From: Capnocytophaga ochracea DSM 7271
GTDB lineage: Bacteria; Bacteroidota; Bacteroidia; Flavobacteriales; Flavobacteriaceae
Direction: 5' to 3'
DNA: 64,000 nt
Assembly: GCF_000023285.1 (NCBI RefSeq)
Contig: NC_013162.1
Location: 2,012,501-2,076,500 of the forward strand
A model generated the notes under the pieces. The model worked only from the letters and a program-made list of their open reading frames with translations, was not told the DNA's origin and searched no databases. The position numbers and the translations under genes are program-made. Below, in pieces: positions 7,731 through 59,488 of the stretch (position 1 is its first letter; every line of letters starts with the position of its first letter).

Positions 7731-7793
7731 CATAAGATATTATATTTTTGTAGTAAAAGATAAATTTGTAATTCAATGATAATCAATGTGTCA

Positions 7794-7876
7794 TATACCC
7801 TTTGTGTAACAATCTTCCAAGATTTGTTCAAGTTTCCTATAAGCTTTGTATAGGTTAAGGATAAATTGAGAAGAGG
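7794..7876. repeat. Degenerate 11-bp tandem array (array 1)
   Basis: Between bioD and rpsO the sequence falls into 11-bp units such as CAAGATTTGTT, CAAGTTTCCTA, TAAGCTTTGTA and TAGGTTAAGGA. Its reverse complement closely matches the array at 27772-27850, so the two are inverted copies. No reading frame or promoter motif is seen within it. Confidence 0.7.
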
Positions 7877-7917: not shown

Positions 7918-7925
7918 TATCTTTG
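7918..7925 (+). promoter_or_regulatory. -7 element TATCTTTG of rpsO
   Basis: TATCTTTG lies 46 bases before the rpsO ATG, leaving an A/T-rich leader of roughly 40 bases. Confidence 0.65.
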
Positions 7926-7970
7926 CGCCCGAAAAAAAATATACATAATAATCATTAAATTAATATTGGA

Positions 7971-8240
7971 ATGTATTTAACAAAAGAAGTAAAAGCAGAA
8001 ATTTTTAAAAAGTACGCAGGTTCAGAAACCAACACAGGTTCAGCAGAAGGGCAAATAGCTCTTTTTACCCTTAGAATCAATCACCTTACAGAACACTTGA
8101 AAGTAAATCGCAAAGATTTCAATACCGAGCGTTCTTTGGTAAGATTAGTAGGTAAACGCAGAAGTTTGCTCGACTATTTGAAAAACACTGATATTGAAAG
8201 ATATCGAGCGATTATCAAAGAGCTAAACATCAGAAAATAA
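7971..8240 (+). CDS. rpsO: 30S ribosomal protein S15
   Basis: This 89-residue protein has the typical length. The S15 signature runs through TGSAEGQIALFTLRINHLTE and the basic segment RSLVRLVGKRRSLLDYL, which binds 16S rRNA helices in the 30S platform. It is followed by a terminator and then pnp, the widespread rpsO-pnp order. Here each gene appears separable because of the intervening terminator. Confidence 0.98.
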   Translation: MYLTKEVKAEIFKKYAGSETNTGSAEGQIALFTLRINHLTEHLKVNRKDFNTERSLVRLVGKRRSLLDYLKNTDIERYRAIIKELNIRK

Positions 8241-12703: not shown

Positions 12704-12710
12704 AAGATGG

Positions 12711-12731
12711 TTAATGGTTAATGGTTAATGG
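12711..12731. repeat. Heptanucleotide repeat, three units
   Basis: Three consecutive GTTAATG-type 7-bp units follow mltG. The same heptamer occurs in reverse complement beside the array at 41205-41417 (CCATTAA units). Confidence 0.8.
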
Positions 12732-12740
12732 TGAAATTAG

Positions 12741-12890
12741 GGGTAACTTATACAGAGCTTATAGGATAAACGAACAGTGAGTGGCTCTACAGTGGGTCTA
12801 CAGTGGGTCTACAACGAACAAAAGACGAACAAAAGACGAACGATAAACGAAGGAACAACGAATGTAAAGTGGAAGTAAAGTGAAGGAGAG
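12741..12890. repeat. Degenerate 11-bp tandem array (array 2)
   Basis: About 13 consecutive 11-bp units, most ending in ACG or GTG (for example GGTCTACAGTG twice and AACAAAAGACG twice, then AACGATAAACG). It is homologous in reverse orientation to the array at 41205-41417, including the flanking GAAATTAGGGGTAACTTATA. The rest of this 382-base gap holds a short hairpin at 12935-12953 and the promoter at 13046; no gene is seen. Confidence 0.8.
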
Positions 12891-27482: not shown

Positions 27483-28082
27483 CAAAAACTTCTTAAAAGT
27501 TGTACAGTTTTCCTTTTTAATTTAACATTTTTAACAATTTCTCTCTTAGTTAGAGTTAGGTAACATATACCTTATTTCTACCTTTACAAAATTAGTGCCA
27601 ATTTTTTTGATTAACAAATTAGGTGTAAGCTGTACGGGCAGTTGTGGCATAATGGACAGTGCGAGCTACGCAGGTGATTAAGTTAGCAAGCTGAGAGAGT
27701 TGGATTATCGAAAGATTTCGGAGAGGTTCGGAAGGAGTAAATTGGCTAAAAAGTGAAAAATAGAGGGTAAATGGGTATGCTTAGCTTATAGGGAGCTTAT
27801 AGGAAGCTTGAACGAATCTTGGAAGATTGGTATAGAAAGGGTATATAAGTAGTTGATAGTGAATGGTTAAAAGTGAAGGATAAAAAGAGGTTTTGGCGAA
27901 AGAAAAGTAATGAAAAACGAAAGCGACCTGCTTTCTGGGAGAGATTGTAGCAACGCAAAAGTGATTGAAAAGTACTACTTTGTTATATTGAACTGATGTT
28001 AAAATATAAAAGGTCTATACGATTCATTTTCTGTATTATTTTGTTACTTATTATTCATCATTTGTAATTCATAATTATTTCC
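27483..28082. other. 600-base intergenic region with an 11-bp array
   Basis: This stretch between divergent genes has no convincing reading frame. It holds A/T-rich sequence near the OmpA promoter, a G/A-rich stretch (27690-27770) with weak 11-base rhythm, the clear array at 27772-27850, and further A/G-rich sequence up to the acyl-CoA carboxylase promoter. No tRNA fold could be made from it. Confidence 0.6.
27772..27850. repeat. Degenerate 11-bp tandem array (array 3)
   Basis: Consecutive 11-bp units include AGCTTATAGGG, AGCTTATAGGA and AGCTTGAACGA. The array is an inverted copy of the one at 7794-7876 (shared CAATCTTCCAAGATT and TTCCTATAAGCT cores) and shares its TTATAGG unit with the array at 12741. 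Confidence 0.7.
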
Positions 28083-41204: not shown

Positions 41205-41417
41205 CCTCTATTTTATCTTCCTCTTATCTTCACCTTATCTTCACCTTATCTTCGTTCATTGTTCGTCTTTTGTTCGTCTTTTGTTCGCCTTTTGTTCGTT
41301 GTAGAGCCACTGTAGAGCCACTGTAGACCCACTGTAGAGCCACTGTAGAGCCACTCATTGTTCGTTTATCATTTAAGCTCTGTATAAGTTACCCCTAATT
41401 TCACCATTAACCATTAA
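41205..41417. repeat. Degenerate 11-bp tandem array (array 4), longest copy
   Basis: About 18 units of 11 bp, read on the minus strand as GCTCTACAGTG, GGTCTACAGTG, AACAAAAGACG and AAGATAAGGTG types, form an inverted homologue of the array at 12741-12890 with more copies of several units. It ends in CCATTAA heptamers. The gap continues with A/T-rich sequence, a promoter at 41494 and the structured element at 41573. Confidence 0.85.
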
Positions 41418-41493
41418 TCTCTTTGCTAGTGTGAGTTTGTAGCTCGTACCTAAAAAATATGCACCAAAAAATTGTACAATTAAAAATTAGTTG

Positions 41494-41501: not shown

Positions 41502-41572
41502 TAGCGAATTTAAAAACCATTTAAACACTATTTAAAAGAAACAGAAAAAACACTTACATAAAGACATAAATT

Positions 41573-41805
41573 AGCGTTTCGCTTTATAATTTCCTTTTTA
41601 TAGAAAACGACCATTTTTATTAAAGTAACTAAAGGGAAGTAGAAGTGGAAATGCCTACGTTATAAGCGTGGGCATTCCTTTTGCTTTAGTTACTGCCTTT
41701 GGTCGGGCTTCTATAAAAGTATAAGGAATGTGCCCGCGTTTTTTTATGCGCTTATATGAACGACAAAGGCAGAATCCGAAAAGCCTGTAATAGAGTAGGA
41801 AAAAT
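41573..41805 (+). ncRNA. Structured RNA element, copy A (leader of the lipoprotein operon)
   Basis: Pairings: hairpin AGCGTTTCGCT (41573-41583); P2 41599-41605 with 41709-41715 and 41608-41613 with 41700-41705; P3, 11 bp, 41624-41634 with 41684-41694; P4 GGAAATGCC (41647-41655) with GGCATTCC (41671-41678); P5 41720-41725 with 41751-41756; P6 AGGC (41767) with GCCT (41783). AAGGAATG (41723-41730) can also pair with CATTCCTT (41673-41680). Copy B at 54567 keeps all these with different bases in P2, P3 and P5. The element ends about 20 bases before the ATG of a lipoprotein gene. No named RNA family is recognised. Confidence 0.8.
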
Positions 41806-54566: not shown

Positions 54567-54806
54567 AGCGTTTCGCTTTACAGTTTCCTAATTTCTGAAA
54601 ACGACCAATTTTTTTAGATGTAAATAGGAAAGTAAAAGTGGAAATGCCTGCGGTTACGTGGGCATTCCTTTTGCTTATTTACATCAGCCTTTGGTCGGGC
54701 TTCAGAAATTGAGCAATAAGGAATGTTTCCACGTTTTTTTATTGCTCTGTTATAGTGAAACCTACCTAAAAGGCGGTAACCGAAAAGCCTGAACAGAGTA
54801 GGTATA
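54567..54806 (+). ncRNA. Structured RNA element, copy B (leader of a lipoprotein gene)
   Basis: The same fold as copy A: hairpin AGCGTTTCGCT (54567-54577); P2 54592-54599 with 54701-54708 and 54602-54608 with 54691-54697; P3 54617-54626 with 54676-54685; P4 GGAAATGCC (54640) with GGCATTCC (54661); P5, 9 bp, 54711-54719 with 54739-54747; P6 AGGC (54771) with GCCT (54787). AAGGAATG (54718-54725) can pair instead with CATTCCTT (54663-54670). Conserved unpaired-looking strings include CCGAAAAGCCTG and AGAGTAGG. It ends about 25 bases before a lipoprotein ATG. Confidence 0.8.
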
Positions 54807-59239: not shown

Positions 59240-59306
59240 GTTCCTTCGTCTTTTGTTCGTCTTTTGTTCGTCTTAGCTTCGTCTTAGGTTCGCTTTAGCT
59301 TCGGTC
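59240..59306. repeat. Degenerate 11-bp tandem array (array 5)
   Basis: Consecutive 11-bp units CGTCTTTTGTT (twice), CGTCTTAGCTT, CGTCTTAGGTT and CGCTTTAGCTT. The first unit is identical to units in the array at 41205-41417. Confidence 0.8.
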
Positions 59307-59488
59307 AAACTCCCTCTAAAATGGCTCTTTTTTCCTCATTTCTCATAGATAATATCTATATAGAGAAAACTATCCGCTTAATGAGTTGATATTTTTTAAA
59401 TATCATAACTATTTTATAGTTTCATTTTTTATTGATTTTTAAGATTTCCATAAGGTTAGATATTCCTTTTTTATTCTGAATTCTCATT

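Follow-up and report, generated by a model that had tools for sequence, protein, structure and literature searches.

Evenly spaced intergenic arrays of 11-bp units in Capnocytophaga ochracea: candidate sites of a nucleoid-organizing protein

In Capnocytophaga ochracea DSM 7271, the intergenic gap at 12741-12890 of the window analyzed here (a stretch of 64,000 nucleotides, positions 2,012,501-2,076,500 of the 2,612,925-bp single-contig genome) can be read directly, letter by letter, as a genuine array of consecutive 11-mers, as a preliminary description of the locus had claimed. The locus raises the question of what such an array is, whether it stands by itself, and what could keep its period fixed while the sequence of its units drifts. 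The answers given below for C. ochracea refer to this one strain, and the genome-wide figures stem from searches and sampled stretches.

Two families of 11-bp arrays

Five loci in the window (7794, 12741, 27772, 41205 and 59240) had been described as one class of arrays sharing an 11-bp period and drifting units. All five display a peak of identity at lag 11 (0.51-0.72, vs 0.20-0.33 at other lags), and scoring of matches per lag identified strong runs at four of them (limits given in the list below), as well as a further weaker, unrelated run at 41508; 20 versions of the window generated by a first-order Markov model gave no lag-11 run. The locus at 7794 lies below the level of a scoring run when taken alone, its lag-11 identity being 0.51 vs 0.20-0.32 at lags 8-10, 12, and 13. 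The common period thus stood, but the single class did not: the combination of fixed period and drifting units was confirmed for the arrays at 12741, 41205, and 59240 (type 2), whereas a conserved element of six units (type 1) is present as one copy each at 7794 and 27772. The five loci are successive members of a set that numbers roughly 200 sites across the genome, here called nodes, and are laid out as follows.

7784..7852, minus strand: node 1, a diverged type 1 (six-unit) copy with 83% identity to the consensus, the same element as at 27783, recognized by alignment and lag 11
12707..12735, plus strand: tandem run of the 7-mer ATGGTTA, bordering node 2 on its left; many type 2 arrays are preceded by a run of this kind
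12736..12890, plus strand: node 2, a type 2 drifting array, with a statistically clear lag-11 run at 12780-12882
27783..27848, plus strand: node 3, a type 1 copy, AGCTTATAGGG AGCTTATAGGA AGCTTGAACGA ATCTTGGAAGA TTGGTATAGAA AGGGTATATAA; its lag-11 run has the same limits
41205..41420, minus strand: node 4, type 2, in which every unit class is present and in the recurrent order; lag-11 run at 41213-41355
59240..59328, minus strand: node 5, a type 2 array of ACGAAG/ACGAAC units; lag-11 run at 59245-59328

The window also contains an S15-Flavobacteria ribosomal leader (RF03161) at 7918-7973, directly downstream of node 1, and two DUF805b RNA matches (Rfam RF02914) at 41766-41801 and 54770-54804; beside the first of these, a stretch of ~350 bp at 41.5-41.9 kb is a repeat that is dispersed in several genomes of the genus.

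Type 2 arrays consist of drifting CTCTACA/ACGAACAAAAG units and follow a recurrent order, in which a 7-bp ATGGTTA run and a AGCTTATAGGA leader come before GTGG[CG]TCTACA, ACGAACAAAAG, and then other units. In node 2 the leader, GAAATTAGGGGTAACTTATACAGAGCTTATAGGATAAACGAACA, forms a less periodic start between the 7-bp run and the clear 11-bp run, and is followed by GTGG[CG]TCTACA units, ACGAACAAAAG units, ACGAACGATAA, ACGAAGGAACA, and GTGGAAGTAAA; node 4 presents the 7-bp run, an AGCTTA leader, 5 copies of GTGG[CG]TCTACA, ACGAACAAAAG units, and GTGAAGATAAG units. Searches with CTACAGTGGGTCTACAGTG-like 19-mers yielded 257 matches in the genome vs 0 with the reversed control. The autocorrelation of intergenic sequence that had been proposed as a check was run on an evenly spaced sample of 464 kb, window included, and its strongest lag is 11 (z 17.2), with harmonics at 22, 33, and 44 and with lags 7 and 8 ranking after it. 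Mosaics of other repeats also occur between genes (L051, L125-L144, e.g. L133:2465 and L128:9636), and comprise tandem runs of 7 bp (TTAATGG, AGGCCTT), 8 bp (AATTAGCA, AATGAGAG), and 9 bp (AATAATGCC), together with hairpins such as CCCCCGAACCCCCGAAGGGGG and CTTTGCCAAAG.

Type 1 is the fixed element AGCTTATAGAG AGCTTATAGGA AGCTTATACGA ATCTTGGACGA TTGGTATAGAA AGGGTATATAA, whose six units form the center of a dispersed repeat of ~210 bp; at up to 3 mismatches to a 33-mer of the element, the genome harbors 131 copies vs 0 with the reversed control. This core is more conserved than the remainder of the copies, identity among 41 aligned C. ochracea copies being 0.93-1.00 across the six units vs 0.6-0.88 in the near flanks. 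In the sister species G013, the equivalent site (ACGAACGAATA ACGAAGGATAA ACGAACTATAA ACGAAGGATA) measures 4 x 11 bp and is spelled differently from that of C. ochracea, and identity among 34 aligned copies is 0.91-0.99 over exactly four units vs 0.50-0.70 in the flanks; these units are all that the copies have in common, their flanks being near background. Conservation that stops at the edges of units is as expected of a protein-binding site, and from these alignments we infer that it probably marks one. The sites are direct-repeat arrays of 44-66 bp with a central dyad that is imperfect at most, and among the 41 own and 34 G013 copies, which were aligned without a systematic boundary search, we noticed no terminal inverted repeat.

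Several other identities can be discarded. The units abut head to tail without unique spacers, which excludes a CRISPR array, as had already been stated. A protein-coding repeat is incompatible with a unit length that is not a multiple of 3 and with the stops present in many units; where an array fell "inside" an ORF, as six did, the frame was short and overlapped that same array. A structured RNA is likewise out, since type 1 folds no better than shuffles (z -0.66) and no Rfam family matched at the nodes scanned. Nor was there any sign of a decayed known mobile element, and no coding capacity was seen. The orientation of type 1 copies is unbiased with respect to the replication fork (69/131), which eliminates a replication-strand motif, as well as with respect to flanking genes; the lack of both biases and of a significant RNA fold makes it more likely that the element acts as DNA. 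Of the two modes of action that had been suggested for the period, DNA bending is not supported as a general property, since the A-tracts of ACAAAAG units are absent from CTCTACA units and a curvature common to both is therefore unlikely, while a period of 11 bp does fit a putative, cooperatively bound protein.

Partition between origin and terminus, and even spacing

GC skew of the sampled stretches is too noisy to locate the origin, and parS sites and 16S orientation were used instead. A cluster at 0.997-0.999 Mb (997143-998781) comprises three parS sites in 1.7 kb, one of them exact and the others with one and two mismatches; the reversed control also matches when two mismatches are allowed, so that the argument is borne by the exact match and the clustering. 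The two 16S loci that were found point away from parS on both sides. Relative to this cluster, type 1 is origin-rich, with 7.8 sites per 100 kb in the origin third vs 2.4 in the terminus third, and type 2 is terminus-rich, with 0.8 vs 5.4 (Fisher p 4e-6). Sampling of 119 kb in the interval 2.4-2.61 Mb gave 0 type 1 sites, and long homogeneous arrays are present near the terminus. The dnaA gene lies at 2.32 Mb (2323163-2324548), facing the parS cluster almost exactly across the chromosome, and the replication origin of C. ochracea is therefore apparently situated away from dnaA.

The spacing of the sites was compared with random placement on intergenic positions, as defined by mechanically predicted ORFs. 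Between 0.3 and 1.9 Mb, the coefficient of variation (CV) of type 1 spacing is 0.59, where random placement matched to intergenic positions gives 0.94; a value as low was reached in 0/5000 simulations, and 8 pairs of sites lie closer than 6 kb vs 32 expected. Type 2 arrays occupy the gaps between type 1 sites: in a list that is a lower bound, drawn from 40 scored candidate regions and the sampled stretches, 1/39 lies within 3 kb of a type 1 site vs 14.2 expected (0/3000 simulations). Pooling of both types gives a mean spacing of 12.5 kb and a CV of 0.53 (null 0.93), with 5 pairs closer than 4 kb where 41 are expected, and reduces the number of gaps above 30 kb from 13 with type 1 alone to 2. 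Three other dispersed repeats of similar copy number, examined in three contiguous blocks, are not over-dispersed (CV 0.92-1.21); in the same blocks, the 11-bp sites form 2 pairs closer than 4 kb vs 10.8 expected, with a CV of 0.73 that includes a prophage gap. Likewise, 23 spacings in two 220-kb blocks of G013 average 14 kb, with 0 pairs closer than 4 kb vs 5.7 expected. An evenly spaced lattice of phased DNA sites is thus well supported. Since the whole genome was needed to recognize them, the six-unit form, the partition between origin and terminus, the even spacing, and the sister-species equivalent had escaped the preliminary description.

A gap of 52 kb at 1.015-1.067 Mb (1014587-1066687) is free of type 1 and corresponds to a prophage, judged by eye from its protein content; it encodes a terminase-like protein, DNA methylases, and an antirepressor-like protein.

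A putative binding protein and its parallels

The arrays could represent the nodes of a chromosome-wide lattice, with ~1 node per 12 kb and always with head-to-tail 11-bp units, in which a putative protein would occupy consecutive units in a cooperative manner along a single helix face, in the way that ParR binds the 11-bp repeats of plasmid R1. Each node would then seed a small nucleoprotein filament, anchoring or bridging the nucleoid at regular intervals. In the terminus half, replication slippage among identical repeated units would lengthen and homogenize the arrays, which may explain the drifting look of type 2. We give an even chance to the proposal, the most likely of those considered here, that the sites are the phased, cooperatively bound DNA of a putative nucleoid-organizing protein, with a role in organization or segregation of the chromosome.

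Two bacterial systems offer partial parallels. The parC site of the type II partition system of plasmid R1 also consists of 11-bp direct repeats, arranged head to tail and each close to one turn of the helix; ParR needs at least two of these repeats to bind, and its binding seeds a solenoid with the DNA wrapped around (PMC9426499). parC is, however, one plasmid site beside parMR, as opposed to the roughly 200 chromosomal sites of C. ochracea. As for distribution, type 1 resembles the nucleoid-occlusion sites of Noc in Bacillus and SlmA in E. coli, which are dispersed and under-represented in the terminus region, but those sites are palindromic and short, numbering about 70 (Noc) and 24-52 (SlmA) per genome, unlike the direct-repeat arrays of the nodes (PMC4726725). 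The accessible part of that source describes no second, terminus-filling class for Noc or SlmA, whereas C. ochracea possesses type 2. The workings proposed here may be likened to those of ParR on parC with regard to the array and to Noc and SlmA sites with regard to distribution; membership of neither system is claimed.

The matS sites of MatP, in the Ter macrodomain of E. coli, are restricted to the terminus, which type 2 also favors; matS is nevertheless a single 13-bp palindrome with no known origin counterpart, whereas type 2 forms tandem arrays and has such a counterpart. The STRR heptamers of filamentous cyanobacteria are dispersed intergenic tandem repeats of fixed period and several unit spellings, but their period is 7 rather than 11, and we know of no even spacing or chromosomal partition among them. 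BrickBuilt, from the oral Bacteroidota member Porphyromonas gingivalis, is a minisatellite within a MITE according to the accessible part of its description (PMC4596501). That part does not describe even spacing or origin and terminus classes for BrickBuilt. BrickBuilt MITEs and pneumococcal BOX elements resemble the nodes in being intergenic and modular and in having tandem units inside; a MITE by definition carries terminal inverted repeats, of which none was noticed in the nodes.

Sister species, rival explanations and significance

Among 20 genomes of the genus, type 1 matches were found only in that of C. ochracea and, as 3 copies, in G008; two of these three adjoin DNA that is 92-94% identical to C. 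ochracea, and so appear to have moved with their neighborhood. G008 (L186, L188) displays sampled gene matches of 67-73% identity and yet kilobase segments that are 92-94% identical to C. ochracea, a contrast that points to recent horizontal exchange between the two. Samples of G010, G018, G019, and G006 (80, 60, 80, and 40 kb) contain no lag-11 runs, and those of G002 and G011 contain one weak run each. Pairs of CGAA at a spacing of 11 were seen in G013, G001, G009, and G008, with one in the G019 sample, and none in the samples of G010, G018, G002, G011, and G006; an exact search of GTDB genomes for the G013 site found none. Since lag-11 runs are missing from the samples of G010 and G018, which rank with the closest relatives, the genus does not depend on the system, which is therefore lineage-specific or easily lost. 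At the position orthologous to node 2 the array is absent from both G010 and G018. An orthologous type 2 array at 2.308 Mb has 8 units in C. ochracea vs 5 in G010 (L073), within DNA that is 93.8% identical over 3 kb; such differences, taken together with the G008 copies beside near-identical DNA, suggest that type 2 arrays change by slippage and that copies are transferred along with their neighbors rather than by autonomous transposition.

An exact 29-mer of type 1 is absent from IMG/VR, phage records gave no match, and the single copy identified on a Capnocytophaga plasmid is 72.6% identical to the consensus; a phage or plasmid origin was rejected on these grounds. This copy (L704:20024-20211) resides on a 28-kb plasmid of Capnocytophaga sp. 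oral taxon 864 that bears type VI secretion genes, and is located between tssK and a Clp ATPase gene. Its lag-11 identity is 0.54 vs 0.26-0.30 at lags 7-10, 12, and 13 (0.40 at 14), and CGAA units replace part of its type 1 core, which links the two unit families.

That several sister species appear to be without sites makes a lineage-specific selfish repeat with spacing immunity the main rival: a short MITE-, REP- or BOX-like repeat, spread selfishly or passively, with target immunity near an existing copy, no host function, and a different element in each species. The restriction of type 1 to C. ochracea and the G008 copies, the spellings that differ by species, and the modular build of an intergenic repeat whose left module has a 7-bp period are in keeping with such an element, whose immunity could yield the even spacing. 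However, immunity of a single element would not explain the spacing that two differently spelled types keep from each other, and the other dispersed repeats of the genome display no over-dispersion. Equally, a mobile repeat is not what one would expect from copies without visible coding capacity or terminal inverted repeats noticed in the alignments, from G013 copies that are alike in four units only, or from G008 copies, two of three of which seem to have traveled with neighboring DNA. We regard this explanation as possible but rather unlikely.

Neutral minisatellites, generated by replication slippage and tolerated between genes, would produce the different unit numbers at shared loci (8 vs 5 above) and the long homogeneous arrays near the terminus. 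Slippage does not, however, scatter 131 copies of one six-unit sequence over the chromosome, keep a core near 100% identical beside diverging flanks, or generate even spacing; these points already argue against this reading for type 1, and we hold it to be improbable. The sites could also be those of gyrase or another topoisomerase, or boundaries of supercoil domains in the manner of enterobacterial BIME elements, as would suit their intergenic position and lack of strand bias, and bacterial supercoil domains are close in size to the 12-kb spacing; we know of no gyrase preference for strict 11-bp units, and this very improbable alternative is in any case a special case of the nucleoid-organizing explanation, with a known protein. 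Least probable of all is a set of operators, phased upstream of the large regulon of a global transcription factor: 15/35 type 1 sites and 25/55 intergenic arrays do lie between divergent genes and few between convergent ones, but the median distance to both neighboring genes is 200-400 bp, there is no preferred orientation, and neither even spacing nor an origin/terminus partition is expected of a regulon.

If the sites do serve a nucleoid-organizing protein, their reach may exceed the genus. When GTDB genomes were scanned for five CGAA boxes 11 bp apart, at that period alone, 52/80 of the first loci listed belonged to Bacteroidota, 44/52 of them outside a long open frame (vs 22/28 loci of other phyla within long frames); in viral contigs, however, five-fold CGAA patterns occur at periods 10 and 12 as well, and extension across the phylum is only a lead. 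Phased CGAA[CG]NNNNNN arrays were observed in Daejeonella, Paraflavisolibacter, Parapedobacter, and Sphingobacterium (L261-L340, e.g. L264, L276, L286, L294, L310, L316, L317, L328), with oppositely oriented TTCG units ahead of some of them, and it is the presence of such arrays outside Capnocytophaga that suggests that the system may extend across the phylum. The open-access literature, a scope that leaves most subscription papers outside, yielded no description of Capnocytophaga intergenic tandem repeats or of Bacteroidetes 11-bp intergenic repeats. We propose, tentatively, that the lattice could belong to a previously undescribed chromosome-organizing system of Bacteroidota, with 11-bp units every ~12 kb, distinct spellings for origin and terminus, a putative filament-forming protein, turnover of spelling with period and spacing kept, and possibly a phylum-wide reach.

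The presence of five successive nodes in a 64-kb window renders the hypothesis directly testable in a type strain. If bound by protein, the arrays would constitute address marks of a Bacteroidota chromosome, a single genome bearing separate classes for origin and terminus. They would also provide a natural experiment: from one species to the next the letters differ, but period and spacing stay the same.
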